Assembly: GCA_938015445.1 (NCBI GenBank)
Contig: CALLPE010000008.1
Span: 62,001 to 126,000, forward strand
DNA from: an uncultured Pirellulales bacterium
GTDB taxonomy: Bacteria; Planctomycetota; Planctomycetia; Pirellulales; Thermoguttaceae
DNA length: 64,000 nucleotides
Direction: 5' to 3'
Under the pieces are notes generated by a model that saw nothing but the letters and a program-made list of their open reading frames with translations, was not told the DNA's origin and did no database searches. Both the position numbers and the translations under genes were made by a program. Below, in pieces: positions 44,665 to 54,599 of the stretch. The number at the start of each line of letters is the position of its first letter. Position 1 is the first letter of the stretch.

Positions 44665-45432
44665 ATGCGCACCGAGCAGCGGCGTAAGCAATTGTTGGAG
44701 TTTGTTCGTTTGCGCCGCTTCGCGTCGCTGCCGGAGTTGGTGCAGGAACTGGGGGTTTCGGAATCGACTATCCGGCGTGACCTAGACTATCTGGAGGAAG
44801 TTGGTTCGGCTCGGCGGACTCACGGCGGCGTGCTTTATGCAGGCGACCTGCCGAAGTTCCCACACTTCGAGATGCGCCAACCGGCCGACTGGCCCAAAAA
44901 GCGCGCCATTGCCCAACGCACTGCCGAGCTTATCGCCGACGGCGAAAGCATTTTGCTCGACGGAGGAAGCACCACCTACGAAGTGGCCCGGCTGCTGGTC
45001 GGCCGGCCCATACACGTGGTGACCAACTCGCTGCCGGTGGCCAACTTGCTGGCGGCCGACGCGCGAGCCGATCTGGTGATGATCGGCGGCAATGTCTGCC
45101 CGCGAACCGGAGTAGTGTTAGGCCCTTACGCCGACAAGATGCTGGCTTCCATTCGGGTCCGCAAAGCCATACTCAGCGTGGCAGCGATAAACGAAGAAGG
45201 GTTTTTCAACAACAACCTGCTGCTAGTCGAGACCGAGCGCGCCATGATGCACGCCGCCACCGAGGTGATCGTCGTGGCCGACAGTACCAAGTTCGGTCAT
45301 CAAAGCCTGGCGCACTTGTGCCCGCTGGGCGAAGTTGACTGCTTGGTAGTCGACGACCAGGTCGATCCCCAGTGGCGCGACAAGGTGCTGGCCGCAGGCG
45401 TGAAACTGCTAGTGGCGCAAAACAGCGTGTGA
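44665..45432 (+). CDS. DeoR/GlpR-type transcriptional regulator
   Basis: 255 residues. The N-terminal winged helix-turn-helix ([20 protein letters not shown], then [16 protein letters not shown]) and the DeoR C-terminal effector domain ([19 protein letters not shown], then [16 protein letters not shown], then [17 protein letters not shown]) are clear. DeoR-type repressors usually sense a phosphorylated sugar. As the first gene of the microcompartment operon, it probably represses it until a deoxysugar intermediate such as fuculose- or rhamnulose-phosphate appears. pduL starts 13 bases after its stop. Confidence 0.93.
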
Positions 45433-45445
45433 GTACGGGCAACGT

Positions 45446-46123
45446 ATGAGCACAGCCTCAACAATCGGCCGCAAAGCGGTCGACCGCAAGTTGGTCGAGC
45501 AGATCGTCCGCGAGATTGTATTGCGGCAGATCGGCGGGCCGCCGGGCAAGCCGCACCTGGTGGTCAGCGTCTCGGCCCGGCATGTGCATCTGAGCCAACA
45601 GGATCTGGAGACGCTTTTCGGCCCAGGCGCCAAGCTCACGGTGATGAAAGAGCTGTATCAGGAGGGTTTTTTCGCTGCCGAGGAGACGGTGATGGTCGTC
45701 GGGCCGCGACGGCGAATGCTACCGACGGTCCGCGTGCTCGGCCCGGTGCGGCCGGAAACCCAGGTGGAGATGGCCTTCACGGATTTGATTTCGCTGGGGA
45801 TCGACGCGCCGGTGCGGGCCAGCGGCGACATCGAAGGCACGCCCGGCTGCGTGCTGGTCGGCCCAAAAGGCGTGGTGGAACTGAAAAAAGGCGTCATTCG
45901 GGCCGAGCGACACGTGCACATGGGCCCGACCGATGCCGAGTATTTCGGCGTGAAGGATGGCGACCGGATGCGGTTGCGGGTAGTGTCGCGGTGCACTACT
46001 GTTTTCGAGGACTTACTGGTTCGGGTGGGCAAGAAGATCAAGTTGGAAGTACACCTCGATACCGACGAGGGCAACGCCTGCGATATCGACCACGCCCAAA
46101 CCGTAGAGTTGCTTAAATCGTGA
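45446..46123 (+). CDS. pduL: Phosphate propanoyltransferase PduL (microcompartment phosphotransacylase)
   Basis: 225 residues. Residues ~12-30 ([19 protein letters not shown]) form an amphipathic helix of the encapsulation-peptide type, followed by a Gly/Pro linker. The two PduL barrels carry the zinc-site sequences [20 protein letters not shown] and [20 protein letters not shown]. The enzyme converts acyl-CoA and phosphate to acyl-phosphate and CoA, recycling CoA inside the shell. Its product would be the substrate of the acetate kinase encoded three genes downstream. Confidence 0.95.
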
Positions 46124-46280: not shown

Positions 46281-46374
46281 CAGGTCACTGATCGTGGCAA
46301 TATGTATTTCCATCCCGACCCGGTTGTAGCGGGAAGTTGCTCTAAAACTTAGCAGGTGAGGGGAGATGAACACC

Positions 46375-46683
46375 ATGGCAAAGTCCAAATCGATGGAAGC
46401 GTTGGGGATGATCGAGACCAAGGGGTTTGTGACCCTGGTCGAGGCCACCGACGCGATGCTCAAAGCGGCCAATGTGGAGTTCCTTGGGTGGGACAAGGTT
46501 GGCAGCGGTCTGGTCAGTGCGTTTGTGACCGGCGATGTGGCGGCTGTCAAAGCGGCCACCGACGCTGGCGCGGCTGCCGGAGGCCGCATCGGCGAGATCG
46601 TCAGCGTGCAGGTCATTCCCCGGCCGCATGACGACCTGAACGTGGTACTGCCCACGCCGATCAAGAAAGGTGCTACCGACTAG
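46375..46683 (+). CDS. BMC-H shell protein (hexameric), first copy
   Basis: 102 residues from ATG 46375, which sits 9 bases after GAGGGGAG; an ATG at 46366 is too close to that site. It is a single BMC domain: [57 protein letters not shown] and VSVQVIPRPHDDLNVVLP. The pore-loop position reads KVGSG. Hexamers tile the facets of the polyhedral shell and their pores pass substrates. It is followed by a second, different BMC-H, as in Planctomycetes-Verrucomicrobia type loci. Confidence 0.96.
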   Translation: MAKSKSMEALGMIETKGFVTLVEATDAMLKAANVEFLGWDKVGSGLVSAFVTGDVAAVKAATDAGAAAGGRIGEIVSVQVIPRPHDDLNVVLPTPIKKGATD

Positions 46684-46867
46684 GATAACCTGGCCGCCCT
46701 GCCGACCGGCGGGCCGCAGCGCGTGCTGGGCGATTCGGGGGCCATAGCTACGCCATGCCTGTGGTGTGCCCTTGGGCCGCCTGGCGGGCAGCGTCCGAGC
46801 AGCCAGCACACCATCGCACCGTTACAGTTCAAAACCTGATAGGTCAACTACAGAGGGGTTAACAGCA

Positions 46868-47137
46868 ATGCAAGACGCCATCGGACTACTGGAAACCAGA
46901 GGTTTAGTGGCATTGGTCGAGGCTACCGACGCCATGGCCAAGGCAGCCAACGTGCAGATCGTCAAGCGCGTGCAGATAGGCGGCGGGTTGGTGACGACCA
47001 TCGTGCGCGGGGACGTAGGCAGCGTGCGGGCGGCAGTCGAGGCTGGGGCCAACGCCGCTTCGCAGGTGGGCGAGCTGGTGGCCAGCCACATCATCCCCCG
47101 ACCGGCCGAAGGCGTGATCGCCGCGTACCTGACGTGA
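46868..47137 (+). CDS. BMC-H shell protein (hexameric), second copy
   Basis: 89 residues from ATG 46868, with AGAGGGG ~10 bases before. It is a single BMC domain ([60 protein letters not shown]). The pore loop reads QIGGG, unlike KVGSG in the first copy, so the two hexamers probably differ in permeability. It has the minimal length of the fold with no C-terminal extension. It is 184 bases downstream of the first copy. Confidence 0.96.
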
Positions 47138-47337: not shown

Positions 47338-48534
47338 ATGAAAATCTTGGTGGCCAACATCGGTTCAACCAGTTTCAAGTACCGGCTGTTCGATATGGCG
47401 GCGGGCATGCAGCTTGCCCGCGGCGGCATCGAACGCATCGGCTCGCCCGAGAGCCGCTGCACGGTGGAGATCGGGCCGCACAAACAGGAACTGCTGCTGC
47501 GCGTGCCCGATCACGGCGAGGCAGTGCGCCAATGCCTGGCTCAGCTTACCGACGAGAAGACCGGCTGCTTGAAGGATGCCGGCGAGGTATCGGCCATCGC
47601 CTTCAAGGCGGTACACGGGGGGCGAATCAGCGGCGTGCAGCGGGTGACGCCCGAGGTGCTCGCCTCCATGGAGGAAATGAATTGCGTCGCTCCGGCGCAC
47701 AACCCGCCGTACATTGCGGCTATGCGTCTGCTGGGCGAACGATTCCCGCATATCCCCTTGGTAGCGGCATTCGAGACCGACTTCCACCGTACCATCCCGC
47801 CGGCCAACCGCTATTACGCCATTCCCTGGGAGTGGGCCGAGCAGGGCCTGGTCAAGCGTTACGGTTTCCACGGGGCCAGCCATCGTTACATCGCCACGCG
47901 CACCGCCGAGTTGTTGGGGCGCAACGACCTGCGGTTGATTTCGATCCACCTGGGCGGCTCCAGTTCGCTGTGCGCCATCCGCAACGGCCAGAGCGTGGCC
48001 GCCAGCATGGGCTTCAGCGCGCAGAGCGGCTTGCCGCAAAACAATCGCGTGGGCGACTTCGACCCGTTCGCCCTACCGATCATCATGAAACACACCGGCA
48101 AGACGCTGGAAGAAGTGCTCCAGGTGCTGGCCTCCGGCAGCGGCCTGCTGGGCCTGAGCGGCGTCAGCGGCGATCTGCGCGACATCGAGCAGGCGGCCAA
48201 GGCCGGCAACCAGCGGGCACAGTTGGCCATCGACGTGTTCGCCAGTTACGTGCGGCACTATTTGGGGGCGTACCTGGTGGAGTTGGGCGGGGCCGATGTG
48301 ATTGTCTTCACCGGCGGCATCGGCGAGAACCGGGCTGAGTTCCGCGCGCTGGTCTGCCGCGACCTGGAGGAACTGGGCATCGTGCTCGACGCCGAGCTGA
48401 ACCGCACAGCCAAGGGCGAGGCTCGTATCAGCGCCGCCCACAGCCGCGTACAAATCTGGATCATGCCCACCAACGAAGAATTGATCGTCGCCCGGCTGGC
48501 CGCCGATTTGTTGCAAGCGCAAGCGAAAAACTGA
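47338..48534 (+). CDS. ackA: Acetate/propionate kinase
   Basis: 398 residues, the usual length, starting at ATG 47338 after GGAGGTAAG. Motifs are [16 protein letters not shown] (N-terminal ATPase signature), [67 protein letters not shown] and [16 protein letters not shown]-type at the C-terminus. It transfers phosphate from acyl-phosphate to ADP. In this operon it would recover ATP from PduL-derived acyl-phosphate, probably in the cytoplasm, since no targeting helix is visible. Confidence 0.96.
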
Positions 48535-48754
48535 CGTGAAGACGCGAAAACCCAGAAACGCGAAAACCCGCAAATACGCGAAAAACACACAGACATGCCA
48601 ACGACTGGGAAATACGCGAAACAGATAAATACGTCAAAAAACGCCCAAAAGATGGCCAGAAAGATGAACGAAACACATTCGGCAAGCGAATTGGCAGGCG
48701 AGCTGGTCGGCACCGACTGCCATGCCCACGCCGGCGCTGCCCGAGGTTGATGTC
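48535..48754 (+). repeat. Purine-rich spacer with four ACGCGAAAA units
   Basis: ACGCGAAA occurs at 48542, 48558, 48576 and 48614 on the coding strand, within an A-rich, U-poor leader of the BMC-P gene. Related AACGCGAGG / GAGCGAAAAAAC fragments precede the second BMC-P gene (~50826) and the aldolase gene (~52468). Confidence 0.75.
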
Positions 48755-49078
48755 ATGCTGCTAGCCAAGGTCACCGGATCGCTGGTATCCACACAGAAGA
48801 TCAGCACCATGGTCGGCCGCAAGCTGCTGCTGGTCGAGTTGTATCGGGTAGATCCGCAGTCGCGCGACCGGCTGGCAAGCACCGGGCGAACAATGGTGGC
48901 GGTCGATACAGTCGGGGCCGGAGAGGAAGAGGTGGTCCTGATCACGCAAGGCTCCAGCGCGCGGCTGACTCCCGAGACACGCAACCTGCCGGTCGATACG
49001 GTGATCATCGGCATTGTCGATAAGGTTCACGTGGGCAACGTGTGCGTGTACGACAAGGAGAAAGCTAGAGTGGTGTAA
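48755..49078 (+). CDS. BMC-P (EutN/CcmL-type) pentameric shell protein, first copy
   Basis: 107 residues from ATG 48755; an ATG at 48722 would add 11 residues not typical of the family. Pattern: MLLAKVTGSLVSTQKISTMV, GRKLLLVELYRVDP, VAVDTVGAGEEEVVLITQGS, then VDTVIIGIVDKVHVGN. BMC-P pentamers cap the vertices of the shell. This copy is the longest of the three, with a Lys/Arg-rich end (YDKEKARVV). Confidence 0.94.
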   Translation: MLLAKVTGSLVSTQKISTMVGRKLLLVELYRVDPQSRDRLASTGRTMVAVDTVGAGEEEVVLITQGSSARLTPETRNLPVDTVIIGIVDKVHVGNVCVYDKEKARVV

Positions 49079-49313: not shown

Positions 49314-50759
49314 ATGGCCATGCAGATCGACGAAACCCTTATCCGCAGCGTCGTCGAACAGGTTTTGCACCGTCTGGGGACGAACGGGAACGTATTGGGT
49401 CCGGTCGGCCGCAGCTATCACGGCCGTTTCGGCATGTTTACCGACGTTAACGAGGCGGTGGCCGCTGCCCGAGATGCCTTCGAACAGCTCTCCCGCCGTA
49501 CCTTGGAGGACCGCAAACGGATCATCGACCATATCCGGCGGCTGGCCATCGAGCACAGTGTCGAGCTGGGCACGATGGAGATGAACGAAACGAAGATCGG
49601 CCGGCTGAAGCACAAGATCGAAAAGCTGCGTACCCTGGGCGAACGTTCGCCGGGGGTGGAGTTCCTCCGCAGCGAAGTGTATAGCGGCGATCACGGGCTG
49701 GCGGTGATCGAGCACGCTCCGTTCGGGGTCATCGGGGCGGTCACGCCAGTTACACACTCGCTGCCGACGATCACCGGCAACGCCATCAGCATGATCGCCG
49801 CCGGCAACACGGTGGTCTTCAATCCGCACCCCAGCGGCAAGCGCGTGGCTGCCGAGGGCGTGCGCCGCTACAACGAGGCCATATACCGCGACCTGGGCAT
49901 CGACAACCTGATGTGCGTGATCACCGAGCCGACGCTCGACACCGCCGAAGCCCTGTTCAAACATCCCGACGTGGCCTTGCTGTGCGTCACCGGTGGCCCG
50001 GGAGTCGCTCGCGCAGCCATGCAGCAAGCCAAACGCGCGATCGTGGCGGGTCCGGGCAATCCGCCAGTGGTGGTCGATGAGACTGCCGATCTGGACAGGG
50101 CGGCCCGATGCATCATCCAAGGCGGTGCCTACGACAACAATTTGCTGTGCATCGCCGAAAAACAGGTGTTCGTGGTCGATCAGGTGTTCGACAAGATGCT
50201 GGCCGCCATGGAACGCGCAGGCGCAGTGCGGCTGAACACCAGGGAGATCGAAGCCTTGACCAAGGCTGCCATTCGCACCGTCGGCGAAGGCGAGCACAAG
50301 CACGATGTGCCGGCCAAGGAGTTCATCGGGCAGGACGCCGCCGTGTTGGCCCAGGCCGCCGGCAAGAAAATACCGCCCGAGTGCGAACTGATCTTCGGCG
50401 AAACCGAGGAAATGCACCCCTTTGTGCAAGTCGAGCAGATGATGCCCTTTTTGCCATTCGTGCGGGCCAGGAACATCGATCATGCCATCGAAATGGCCGT
50501 CCGCAGCGAGCACGGCTTCAAGCACACCGCCATTATCCATTCCAACAACGTGCGCAACATGACCCGGATGGGAAAAGCGGTAGATACGACGCTGTTCATC
50601 AAGAACGGGCCGTGCATGGCAGGGCTGGGACTGGGCGGCGAAGGTTATCTGTCGTTTTCGATCGCAGGCCCGACCGGGGAAGGCATCACTACCCCGCTGA
50701 CCTTTACCCGCGAACGACGCTGCTCGATGATCGACGACCTGCGCATCTTGGGCAAATAA
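49314..50759 (+). CDS. CoA-acylating aldehyde dehydrogenase (PduP-like), microcompartment core enzyme
   Basis: 481 residues. Residues 4-22 (IDETLIRSVVEQVLHRLG) form an N-terminal amphipathic encapsulation-peptide helix, followed by a short Gly/Asn linker. The ALDH fold has APFGVIGAVTPVTHSLPTI, NTVVFNPHPSGKRVA, LCVTGGPGVARAAMQQAKRA and the catalytic cysteine in AYDNNLLCIAEKQVFVV, as in PduP/EutE. It oxidises an aldehyde (lactaldehyde or propionaldehyde) to the acyl-CoA with NAD+. Its product would be the PduL substrate. Confidence 0.95.
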   Translation: MAMQIDETLIRSVVEQVLHRLGTNGNVLGPVGRSYHGRFGMFTDVNEAVAAARDAFEQLSRRTLEDRKRIIDHIRRLAIEHSVELGTMEMNETKIGRLKHKIEKLRTLGERSPGVEFLRSEVYSGDHGLAVIEHAPFGVIGAVTPVTHSLPTITGNAISMIAAGNTVVFNPHPSGKRVAAEGVRRYNEAIYRDLGIDNLMCVITEPTLDTAEALFKHPDVALLCVTGGPGVARAAMQQAKRAIVAGPGNPPVVVDETADLDRAARCIIQGGAYDNNLLCIAEKQVFVVDQVFDKMLAAMERAGAVRLNTREIEALTKAAIRTVGEGEHKHDVPAKEFIGQDAAVLAQAAGKKIPPECELIFGETEEMHPFVQVEQMMPFLPFVRARNIDHAIEMAVRSEHGFKHTAIIHSNNVRNMTRMGKAVDTTLFIKNGPCMAGLGLGGEGYLSFSIAGPTGEGITTPLTFTRERRCSMIDDLRILGK

Positions 50760-50902: not shown

Positions 50903-51163
50903 ATGTACTTTGGGCGGGTTGTGGGGACGGCCACGGCGACCGTTAAGCATCCCTCGATGCAGGGCTGCAAGTTACTGCTGGTCATGGCATTGCAGGCGGA
51001 TCGAAAAAGCATCGAAGGTGACCCTGTGCTGGTCATCGACACGCTGGGAGCAGGCATCGGCGACATGGTGATGATCACCAGCGACGGCATCGGCGCGCGC
51101 GAGTTGGTACGCGACGAACGCTCGCCGGTGCGCTGGTCGGTGCTGGGCATAATCGACCAATGA
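50903..51163 (+). CDS. BMC-P (EutN/CcmL-type) pentameric shell protein, second copy
   Basis: 86 residues: MYFGRVVGTATATVKHPSMQ, GCKLLLVMALQADRK, VLVIDTLGAGIGDMVMITSD, then SPVRWSVLGIIDQ. This is the canonical minimal EutN/CcmL fold capping shell vertices. Its stop overlaps the start of the RpiB-like gene (ATGA at 51160), so the two are translationally coupled. Confidence 0.95.
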   Translation: MYFGRVVGTATATVKHPSMQGCKLLLVMALQADRKSIEGDPVLVIDTLGAGIGDMVMITSDGIGARELVRDERSPVRWSVLGIIDQ

Positions 51164-51957
51164 ATCAGTCGGCTTTGGATATGGAACGGGTGGTGACCGA
51201 AGTGCTGGCCGAGCTGCGCCGGCTGGCCGGCGGCGCGGTCGGATGCCCATCGCACGGTTCAGCCGTCCAAGACGGGCCTGGCTCTGAAACTCCAGCCCCG
51301 GCACCCCTTGCGTCCGATGGGCAGGCAAGCAACTCCCTTGCATCGACTGCCCGGGACGTACAGGCGGAAGACGGGCGGCTGGTGTTCGAGGGCCGAGTTT
51401 TGACACTCGAAGCGCTATTCGGCCGATGGAGCAGCCTGCGTCGGGTGGTGATTCAGCCGCGCACCATCGTCACCCCGGCGGTCCGCGACGAATTGCAGCG
51501 CCGCGGCATCGCCCTGGAATATGCGTCTGCGGCGCGACTCCGTACCGAAGGGGCCATACGCCTGCTGGTGGTCAACGCCCAGCGGGAATTTCAGGTCGCA
51601 GAGCTGACAGCGGCCCTCCGCGCGGATGGAGTGCCGGTGGAAGTGCTGGAGTTGAATTGTCTGATCGCTGCTACCGACCGGCTGGCCGCCGAACTGCGCC
51701 GGGGCGACACACTGGGATTGGTACTGACGCGCCATGTTCCGGCTGCGCTATGCCTGGCCAATCGGCACGGGGGCGTCCGCGCGGTGGAGGCCGCCGATTT
51801 GCCGGGCATGGCCGCTGCTGTCGAAGCGGTGGGGGCGAATCTGTTGGTGTTGGACCCCGCAGCACTTACTGCCTTCCAACTGAAACAGATGGCAGTGCAG
51901 TTCTCCCGTGGGGGCGTGCGGCCATGTCCGGAACCGCTCCGCCTCCGATTGCAGTAA
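51160..51957 (+). CDS. Microcompartment-associated RpiB-fold-like protein with N-terminal encapsulation-type helix
   Basis: 265 residues. Residues ~6-24 (LDMERVVTEVLAELRRLAG) are an amphipathic helix like the targeting helices of PduL and the aldehyde dehydrogenase. A low-complexity linker (~25-70) follows, then a motif seen in other microcompartment proteins (IVTPAVRDELQRRGIALEY, ~103-121). Residues ~130-245 resemble the RpiB/LacAB sugar-phosphate isomerase fold: LGLVLTRHVPAALCLANR aligns with the CGTGIG...AANK region, followed by GGVRAV and GANLLVLDP. The catalytic Cys position is Thr190 and GTG is lost, so isomerase activity is doubtful. The assignment is by eye and its role is unknown. 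Confidence 0.7.
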   Translation: MNQSALDMERVVTEVLAELRRLAGGAVGCPSHGSAVQDGPGSETPAPAPLASDGQASNSLASTARDVQAEDGRLVFEGRVLTLEALFGRWSSLRRVVIQPRTIVTPAVRDELQRRGIALEYASAARLRTEGAIRLLVVNAQREFQVAELTAALRADGVPVEVLELNCLIAATDRLAAELRRGDTLGLVLTRHVPAALCLANRHGGVRAVEAADLPGMAAAVEAVGANLLVLDPAALTAFQLKQMAVQFSRGGVRPCPEPLRLRLQ

Positions 51958-51990: not shown

Positions 51991-52296
51991 ATGCGAATCG
52001 GAGAAGTAATCGGCACGGTGACGCTCTCGCGCGTGCATCCTACGCTGATGGGGAAGACTTTCAAACTGGTCGTCCCGGTGTTGTGGGACCAGTTGCTGGC
52101 AGCTACAGCCGAGCCGGCCGAGGAGACAGTTGTGCTCGATGAACTGGGTGCCGGCATTGGTGTACAGATCGCCATGAGCGAAGGGCGCGAAGCAGCCATG
52201 CCTTTTCACCCGGATATAAAGCCGGTGGATGCATACAACGCCGCTCTGCTGGACCGGCTTGTTATAGAGCGATCGCTGTTGCCCGACGGCGCCTAA
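51991..52296 (+). CDS. BMC-P (EutN/CcmL-type) pentameric shell protein, third copy
   Basis: 101 residues; an AGGAAAG-type site lies ~12 bases before ATG 51991. Pattern: MRIGEVIGTVTLSRVHPTLM, GKTFKLVVPVLWDQL, VVLDELGAGIGVQIAMSEG, and then, instead of the short canonical end, PVDAYNAALLDRLVIERSLLP. It differs clearly from the other two copies (e.g. DELGAGIG against DTLGAGIG and DTVGAGEE), so the shell may use distinct vertex types. Confidence 0.93.
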   Translation: MRIGEVIGTVTLSRVHPTLMGKTFKLVVPVLWDQLLAATAEPAEETVVLDELGAGIGVQIAMSEGREAAMPFHPDIKPVDAYNAALLDRLVIERSLLPDGA

Positions 52297-52494: not shown

Positions 52495-53481
52495 ATGCTC
52501 AACGTACACAAGATCAAGCAAGAGATATGCGAGATCGGCCGGCGGATATACCAGCGCGGCTTCGCCGCTGCCAACGACGGCAATATCAGCTTTCGGCTTG
52601 GCCCCAACGAGGTGCTGTGCACTCCCACGATGATTTCCAAGGGCTTCATGAAGCCCGAGGACCTGTGCGTGGTCGATATGGAGGGGAAGCAGCTTTCGGG
52701 CCATCGGAAGCGGACCAGCGAGATCATGCTGCACCTGGAGATCATGAAGGCCCGGCCCGATGTGAAGGCGGTGGTTCATTGCCATCCGCCTCATGCCACC
52801 GCTTTTGGCATCGCTCGTGAGCCTATCCCGCAATGCGTGCTTCCGGAAGTGGAGATTTTTTTGGGCGACGTGCCGATTGCGCGCTACGAAACGCCAGGCG
52901 GCCCGGAGTTCGCGAAGACCGTATTGCCGTTTGTGGAGAAGACGAACATCATCATCTTGGCCAACCACGGGACGGTCAGCTACGGAGAAACGGTAGAGCG
53001 GGCTTACTGGTGGGCCGAGATACTCGACGCCTACTGCCGCATTCTGATGTTGGCTCGCGGCCTAGGACGAATCCATTACTTCAGCGAGCCGGAAGCGCAG
53101 GCCCTGCTGCAACTTAAGCAAAAATGGGGGTTTAAAGATCCGCGCTTCGAGCTGACCAACTGCGACATCTGCGCCAACGACGTGTTCCGCGACAGTTGGA
53201 AGGAAACCGGCGTTCAACACCAGGCGTTTCAACCGCCGCGGTACTGTAAGCCCGCCGACGGCGCGGGCCAGCCGGCCGCGAAATCAGCCGGCCAGTTGGC
53301 CAACACCGACGGCCAGCCCGCTGCGCCGGGAGCGGCAACGGCCAATCCACATTCCGCCAGCGCTGGGCAGCCGACCGAAACGGTGCAGCAACCGTCCGTG
53401 GCCCAGCTTGGTGCCGCCGAGCAGGAAGCGCTGATTCAGACTATTACCGACCGGGTAATGGAAATGCTGGCCAAGATGTAG
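52495..53481 (+). CDS. Class II aldolase (fuculose/rhamnulose-phosphate type) with C-terminal encapsulation peptide
   Basis: 328 residues. Residues ~1-220 are the class II aldolase fold: RGFAAANDGNISFRLGPNEVL, LCTPTMISKGFMKPEDLCVV, KRTSEIMLHLEIMKARPDVKA, the Zn-binding VVHCHPPHATAFGIA, and IIILANHGTVSYGETVERAY with the third Zn His. A Pro/Ala/Gln-rich linker (~245-300) leads to a terminal amphipathic helix (EQEALIQTITDRVMEMLAKM) that probably targets it into the shell. It splits fuculose- or rhamnulose-1-phosphate to lactaldehyde and dihydroxyacetone phosphate. This supplies the aldehyde used by the dehydrogenase. Last gene of the operon. Confidence 0.93.
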   Translation: MLNVHKIKQEICEIGRRIYQRGFAAANDGNISFRLGPNEVLCTPTMISKGFMKPEDLCVVDMEGKQLSGHRKRTSEIMLHLEIMKARPDVKAVVHCHPPHATAFGIAREPIPQCVLPEVEIFLGDVPIARYETPGGPEFAKTVLPFVEKTNIIILANHGTVSYGETVERAYWWAEILDAYCRILMLARGLGRIHYFSEPEAQALLQLKQKWGFKDPRFELTNCDICANDVFRDSWKETGVQHQAFQPPRYCKPADGAGQPAAKSAGQLANTDGQPAAPGAATANPHSASAGQPTETVQQPSVAQLGAAEQEALIQTITDRVMEMLAKM

Positions 53482-53663: not shown

Positions 53664-54599
53664 TCAGCGGAATCTGTAGTTGGGGTTGCGGATGTCGAAA
53701 TCGGCGTCGGTGAACCCGTTGTTGAGCTTCAGGTTCAAGTAGGTGTACTCTTCCATCAGCTCAGGTTCGCCGCCGGGCTGCTTGGGCCAGTCCCAGGCCT
53801 CGTAGCGGATGGGCACGTTCAGCTCGTCGTCCACGTAGATGCGCGCGATGTGGAACAGGAACACCCGCCGCGGCACAGGATGTACCACCTGAATGCAGGT
53901 GCAGGTGCGGTCGTTGATCTTTGCGCCTTTGAGGAACTTGACCTCGCATTCGCCGAAGCGGGCATCCTTCTCAGCCACTTCTACCAATCGGCGCGTGAGG
54001 TTCAGAATCCCGATCTCGGTCAGCGGATAGCGCTGGCCCTTCATGGCGATGGCGCTGGTGGGCGACAGCGACACCGTGCCGACCAGTGTGTCTTTGATGC
54101 CTACGGTATGCGCCCACATGTTGCCGTTGTTCTGGCCTTCGACGTAAATGACCTCTTGCCCCTTGATCGACGGCGGGGAGAGGAAGTATATGTACACGCT
54201 GAACGGCTTGTGACGGACTTTAATGAACATGTACTCGTAGTCGTTCAGCTTGCCGTCGTGCCGCTCGCGCTTGCACAGCGTGGCCGAGTAATCGCTGATC
54301 TTCTCCATGTTGGCGATTCCCTCGTAAGCCCAACGGATGGCAGGCATCAGTGGGTGCTCGTCGGGCTGTTGAGGGTCGGCAATTGCTGGCACCGGCCGGC
54401 TGCTCAGCTCGGTGCGTTCGGCCACCAGCTCTGGCTGCCTGCCGTCGCTTTTCGGCTGCTCTTGGGCGGCCGATTCCGGCTTTTTAGGCGACTCGTGTTT
54501 CTTGCGCGGCAATATCTGCCCTGTGCTTTGAGCGCTAATAGCCGCCGCAATCCATAGTGCCGCAATCAGCCTCCAGAACGCAAACCATTTCGACTGCAT
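53664..54599 (-). CDS. DUF1571 secreted protein
   Basis: 311 residues with a signal peptide at ~1-27 (WFAFWRLIAALWIAAAISAQ) and a Lys/Pro/Glu-rich linker. The DUF1571 domain then runs to the end: RWAYEGIANMEKISDYSATL, KRERHDGKLNDYEYMFIKVR, PFSVYIYFLSPPSIKGQEVIY, CIQVVHPVPRRVFLFHIARIYVDDELNVPIRYEAWDWP, ending DADFDIRNPNYRFR. The family is typical of planctomycetes and resembles LolA-like lipoprotein-carrier folds. Its role is unknown. It is convergent with the microcompartment operon. Confidence 0.88.
   Translation of the reverse strand: MQSKWFAFWRLIAALWIAAAISAQSTGQILPRKKHESPKKPESAAQEQPKSDGRQPELVAERTELSSRPVPAIADPQQPDEHPLMPAIRWAYEGIANMEKISDYSATLCKRERHDGKLNDYEYMFIKVRHKPFSVYIYFLSPPSIKGQEVIYVEGQNNGNMWAHTVGIKDTLVGTVSLSPTSAIAMKGQRYPLTEIGILNLTRRLVEVAEKDARFGECEVKFLKGAKINDRTCTCIQVVHPVPRRVFLFHIARIYVDDELNVPIRYEAWDWPKQPGGEPELMEEYTYLNLKLNNGFTDADFDIRNPNYRFR

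Follow-up and report, generated by a model that had tools for sequence, protein, structure and literature searches.

A degenerate RpiB-fold protein as a candidate shell-cargo adaptor of PVM-type microcompartments in planctomycetes

What does a protein that belongs to no readily recognizable family do among the shell genes of a bacterial microcompartment? This question is raised by an open reading frame of 265 amino acids (51160..51957; forward strand, as are all features of its operon below) in a stretch of 64,000 nucleotides from an uncultured Pirellulales bacterium, here called the window, for which orthologues were identified. An earlier note on this DNA, made from the letters alone, had read it as a pseudoenzyme with the RpiB fold that is packed inside the compartment. 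The ATG of the gene lies over the stop codon of the upstream BMC-P gene (50903..51163; PF03319, E 2.3e-24), giving the 4-base overlap that had been pointed out (ATGA, 51160..51163), and a further BMC-P gene follows directly downstream (51991..52296). Besides these two shell genes, a Pfam scan of the locus identified a DeoR-family regulator (44665..45432), a PduL-type phosphotransacylase (45446..46123), two BMC-H shell proteins (46366..46683 and 46766..47137), an acetate kinase (47338..48534), another BMC-P shell protein (48722..49078), an aldehyde dehydrogenase (AldDH; 49314..50759) and a class II aldolase (52495..53481), the signature enzyme of the PVM compartment (PMC4207490). With this combination of class II aldolase, AldDH, PduL, acetate kinase, DeoR, BMC-H and several BMC-P genes the locus is of the PVM type, which in Planctomycetes and Verrucomicrobia encodes a compartment for fucose and rhamnose (PMC4207490).

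For the lactate/malate dehydrogenase expected of PVM loci, no LDH match is present on the contig and two are found elsewhere in the genome; in the place after the aldolase where a lactate dehydrogenase might be expected, a DUF1571 protein is encoded on the reverse strand (53664-54599). A DeoC-type aldolase is absent from the locus, the sole DeoC match of the genome being located on another contig, and two canonical RpiBs are encoded elsewhere in the same genome. Outside the window, the same genome (G000) has two more pairs of BMC domains (contig C8:11899-12474 and C5:44338-44853), and the two domains of a pair apparently share an open frame. These candidates for tandem BMC-T proteins are distant from the PVM operon and may be satellite shell genes.

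Homologues of the pseudoenzyme occur in 47 of 60 relatives, and 48 loci, all of them planctomycete by title, were identified in the named genome collection. No match was found among plasmids. The comparison loci were limited to Planctomycetota and E. coli, with Verrucomicrobia, Haliangium-type and acidobacterial loci outside their scope. From the 48 loci, 42 orthologues were combined with the window protein in an alignment of 43 rows. As far as the contigs reach, the gene lies in a PVM operon beside BMC-P genes at every one of the 42 loci, as anticipated for a gene conserved together with the shell, and complete PVM loci share the gene order of the window. At the same time it encodes the fastest-evolving protein of the operon, with a median identity to the window protein of 42% versus 62-87% for the other proteins. 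Pairwise dN/dS values of 0.21-0.43 for the RpiB domain indicate that this domain is under purifying selection.

The window protein alone matches nothing in Pfam or NCBIfam, PF02502 included, even at an E-value of 10, and phmmer against the PDB gave chance matches only. Because the single sequence matched no family, orthologue profiles were needed. In the PDB, a profile of 20 sequences retrieved one coherent family and no other, with LacB at the top (best E 0.0018) and several RpiBs behind it, and 14 of the 20 orthologues match PF02502 (best 1.5e-8). The segments on which the RpiB assignment had originally been based, TLGLVLTRHVPAALCLANR (residues 184-202), GGVRAV and GANLLVL, are indeed present, and structure prediction had been set beforehand as the test of the fold. 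AlphaFold2, run on the 43-row alignment, returned a model with a mean pLDDT of 84.8, in which the two domains comprising residues 67-121 and 130-265 are mostly above 90. All top 43 rows of the Foldseek search are members of the RpiB family, including LacAB and one annotated hexosulose-uronate isomerase, and VIA-align superimposes the model on Thermotoga RpiB (1o1x) with a Z-score of 16.9 and an rmsd of 2.1 Å over 130 residues, compared to 8.5 for the next unrelated fold. The predicted structure thus passes that test, and it shows residues 130-265 (51547..51954) to have the RpiB fold.

The protein has this fold in common with canonical RpiB and LacAB proteins (E. coli RpiB, Thermotoga 1o1x), but its catalytic residues are replaced and an N-terminal helix and a small module have been added. 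In an alignment that includes E. coli RpiB and the two RpiBs of the genome itself, the PVM proteins are without the RpiB residues D9, H10, D42/Y43/P44, C66, H99, N100 and R133 and without the GTG loop; D9 survives in three divergent members only. What is retained is the structural core AN(R/K)..G(V/I)RA together with N103. The position of the catalytic Cys66 is occupied by Thr in 37 rows, Ser in five and Ala in one, and by Cys in none of the 43. In the window protein it corresponds to Thr190 (codon 51727..51729) and the GTG loop reads RHV, in agreement with the original reading by eye; orthologues with the Cys and the GTG loop, which would have spoken against that reading, were not encountered. 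As judged from the alignment, the residues of the isomerase active site have been lost from the PVM protein. Three other cysteines are frequent: Cys167 at the position of RpiB D42/Y43 (51658..51660; 32 of 43 rows), Cys198 of the CLANR motif (51751..51753; 41 of 43) and Cys256 next to the position of R133 (51925..51927; 38 of 43). All three are invariant in the 20 near orthologues, and only Cys198 is deeply conserved in the wider set of 43 rows.

The N-terminus is formed by a helix of the encapsulation-peptide type (residues 3-24; 51166..51231), as supported by the AlphaFold2 model, conservation and amphipathicity. Its hydrophobic moment of 0.60, versus 0.27 in permutations (p about 0.014), bears out the amphipathic character ascribed to it by the earlier note, and V12 and V15 are kept in all 42 alignment rows that have letters there. 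The helix profile also matches the N-termini of EutC (E 0.0012) and of the PduL encoded in the operon (E 0.0075). The conservation of this helix and of the operon position speaks for packing of the protein inside the compartment, as originally proposed, in the absence of experimental data. By eye, encapsulation-type helices can also be discerned at the N-terminus of the AldDH (DETLIRSVVEQVLHRLG) and at the C-terminus of the aldolase (EQEALIQTITDRVMEMLAKM). The helix is followed by a linker (residues 25-66; 51232..51357) of variable length in the alignment and low confidence in the model. In PVM loci of another class (L105:8019-8870, L106:7771-8655, L108:8053-8862) a linker motif PP(V/I/A)G(T/V)CTGDYSKF is conserved, which the window protein does not have.

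When the whole phylum was searched with the PVM profile, proteins in other classes were also found. Many of these are RpiBs that have the N-terminal helix and the module as well, and in eight of nine genomes tested a DeoC-type aldolase is encoded close to such an RpiB. The combination of DeoC and RpiB (PF02502) defines the SPU compartment (PMC8217296, PMC4207490), to which these RpiBs belong. A second search yielded 30 full-length SPU members, some of them the same genes as in the first, and BMC-P genes flank nearly all of these 30 RpiBs within the short stretch examined. In SPU RpiBs (L119-L148; also L107, L109-L113, L115 and L116) Cys66 is changed to Asp in 30 out of 30, D9, H10, D42, N77, H99, N100, R133 and R137 are kept in 30 out of 30, and Thr68 is replaced by Ala, Met, Val, Ser or Ile. 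Isomerization of R5P by SPU RpiBs is an assumption in the literature. The PVM protein and the SPU RpiBs are thus alike in their architecture of helix, module and RpiB domain and in the BMC-P genes on their flanks. They differ in that the SPU proteins keep nearly all tested substrate-site residues, with C66 changed to D, whereas the PVM protein is without the site, and in their partner enzyme, a DeoC aldolase in SPU and a class II aldolase in PVM. An RpiB-domain profile gives scores of at most 37 bits for SPU RpiBs and of 9-19 bits for canonical RpiBs; since these ranges overlap, architecture and locus position are the main grounds for descent from SPU proteins. At the level of aligned residues there are three grades: canonical RpiBs, SPU RpiBs with the substrate site kept and the Cys changed to Asp, and PVM proteins in which the site is gone. 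For the PVM protein, descent by degeneration from an SPU-like encapsulated RpiB is the best reading, the evolutionary direction being inferred.

Between linker and RpiB domain lies a microcompartment module of about 55 amino acids (residues 67-121, RVLTLEAL...RRVVIQPRTIVTPAVRDELQRRGIALEY; 51358..51522), in which T105 and P106 are present in all 43 alignment rows. A module profile was built from SPU proteins and searched against 2865 natural ORFs of DNA from Planctomycetota and the E. coli comparison loci. It matches an ACT-like protein of another planctomycete compartment locus (E 2e-8), the N-termini of E. coli EutQ (E 1.4e-7) and EutT (E 1.8e-5), the window protein (E 9.7e-5) and, as the last match above noise, the C-terminus of PduM (E 0.0074; next match 0.046). 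Compared to shuffled sequences, EutQ and EutT are clear of noise, whereas PduM (0.013) is outscored by one shuffle (0.0045). SPU and PVM modules align in hhalign with a probability of 97.9 (E 4.6e-13). With a profile from PVM modules only, EutT and PduM are not distinguished from shuffled sequences, and the link between the PVM module and EutQ/EutT therefore runs through the SPU proteins. These profile matches show the module to share homology with the EutQ and EutT N-termini, where Pfam has no model over this stretch, and homology to PduM is borderline. The TPAVRDELQRRGI motif, in which a resemblance to other microcompartment proteins had been noticed, lies within this very module. When modeled by itself, the module reaches a pLDDT of 84.7; the best fold matches of the lone module (Foldseek E 0.041; VIA Z 6.7, to Cas1 N-domains) are in the chance range and were not trusted. 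A protein at L114:7920-8528 (contig C1 of genome G228) combines a module of the EutQ/EutT type with, by eye, an ACT-like domain and is encoded near BMC-P, AldDH and BMC-H genes.

The function of this module has been mapped in EutQ of Salmonella. Shell-cargo association depends on the N-terminal 99 residues of EutQ, which suffice for targeting; without residues 9-41 EutQ stays with the cargo, apart from the shell, and without residues 62-99, which bind cargo peptides, it stays with the shell, while its C-terminal cupin domain dimerizes (PMC12487888). The stretch homologous to module 67-121 is EutQ 9-41. Both proteins thus have a homologous module, a helical region of the cargo type and a globular C-terminal domain, yet in EutQ the module comes first and the cargo-binding helices after it, whereas the PVM protein has its helix first, and EutQ ends in a cupin where the PVM protein has an RpiB fold. 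Neither the Pfam scan nor the AlphaFold2 model revealed the cupin domain PF06249 in the window protein. PduM reaches the core by means of an N-terminal signal helix (residues 1-23) and helps to hold core and shell together, which come partly apart upon its loss (PMC9132943, PMC12108088). PduM resembles the PVM protein in this helix, in its probable C-terminal module and in the position of its gene beside the BMC-P gene pduN, but no RpiB domain is recognized in it, and the window protein does not match the PduM family PF15953 (PDU_like).

We propose that the pseudoenzyme is probably the shell-cargo adaptor of the PVM microcompartment, although considerable doubt remains and no binding, localization or activity data were found. 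By homology and analogy, residues 3-24 would join the encapsulation-peptide bundle of the core enzymes, and module 67-121 would dock on the shell from the inside, in the manner of the N-terminal residues 9-41 of EutQ. The RpiB-fold domain would no longer isomerize sugars. RpiBs are dimers, and if the PVM protein has remained one, the adaptor would be multivalent, bivalent at both ends, comparable to EutQ with its cupin. The ancestor of such an adaptor would have been an encapsulated RpiB similar to those of the SPU (deoxyribose-phosphate) compartments; these RpiBs are likewise made up of all three parts, and their genes have a comparable place among BMC-P genes. Shell binding, cargo binding and dimerization, for which there is no dimer model, are all inferred. 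A broader hypothesis, which we consider possible but would not yet bet on, is that the module is a general metabolosome shell-docking domain common to EutQ, EutT, SPU RpiB, the PVM pseudo-RpiB, the ACT-like protein and PduM, carried each time by a different body and in some cases by a dead enzyme.

The earlier note had left the choice between a non-catalytic scaffold, a ligand sensor and an enzyme of new chemistry. This interpretation is supported, and the presence of an EutQ-type module favors the scaffold or adaptor among the three. The main rivals to the adaptor are a core-only organizer and new chemistry at a Cys-lined pocket. A protein without any contact to the shell could cross-link cargo into a condensate merely by presenting an encapsulation helix on a dimeric body, as the conservation of the helix and the established dimeric state of RpiBs would allow. 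Trimeric bundles of encapsulation peptides are moreover known to drive condensation (PMC12339742). Yet such an organizer leaves no role for the conserved module with its invariant T105 and P106 and its homology to EutQ, and we regard it as unlikely. The cysteines raise a different prospect, i.e., that the sugar-phosphate pocket has been rebuilt around C167, C198 and C256 to act on lactaldehyde, DHAP or a similar intermediate. Their invariance in the near orthologues, the location of two of them beside former active-site positions and the presence of C198 in all but two rows are what this explanation would lead one to expect. It is weakened because divergent members that keep the operon position have lost C167 and C256 and because none of the enzymes encoded in the operon evolves nearly as fast as this protein; in addition, the lost residues have not been replaced by any conserved acid/base pair. 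A new catalytic function is thus a minor possibility.

The retained fold and AN(R/K)..G(V/I)RA core could also serve a sensor that still binds a phosphosugar and reports to core or shell, but precisely the phosphate- and sugar-binding residues of RpiB (D9, H10, H99, N100, R133) are not conserved, which makes sensing quite improbable. Fast evolution and a lost active site would equally befit a decaying relic of an SPU-type RpiB that is merely carried along in the operon; its unvarying slot at all 42 loci, the purifying selection on the RpiB domain and the near invariance of the module residues are so hard to reconcile with decay that we give this explanation hardly any credence. The adaptor reading itself has weak points. 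The module also occurs in EutT, for which no adaptor role is known, and may thus serve encapsulation in general. In the PVM compartment shell and core may be connected by other proteins, and the conserved Cys198 could signal a leftover chemical or redox role.

In summary, the shell-cargo adaptor is the reading we prefer for a protein that accompanies the shell genes at all 42 PVM loci compared, as far as the contigs reach. A literature search found nothing on a shell-core connector of PVM compartments; the founding description of PVM (Erbilgin 2014) was outside this search, and an earlier mention of the protein is not excluded. In the Eut system the tie between shell and core was worked out only in 2025, with EutQ (PMC12487888), and the role of PduM in the Pdu system is disputed. 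PduM has been described as lacking known sequence homologues outside Pdu (PMC12108088), and a general docking domain, if true, would give it its first relatives there. The conserved module links these systems and its role at the shell has been mapped in EutQ, making the proposed adaptor directly testable in a genetically tractable planctomycete. An isomerase appears to have been made into a structural part in a stepwise manner, from canonical RpiB via the Cys-to-Asp exchange of the SPU proteins to the PVM protein in which the site is gone.
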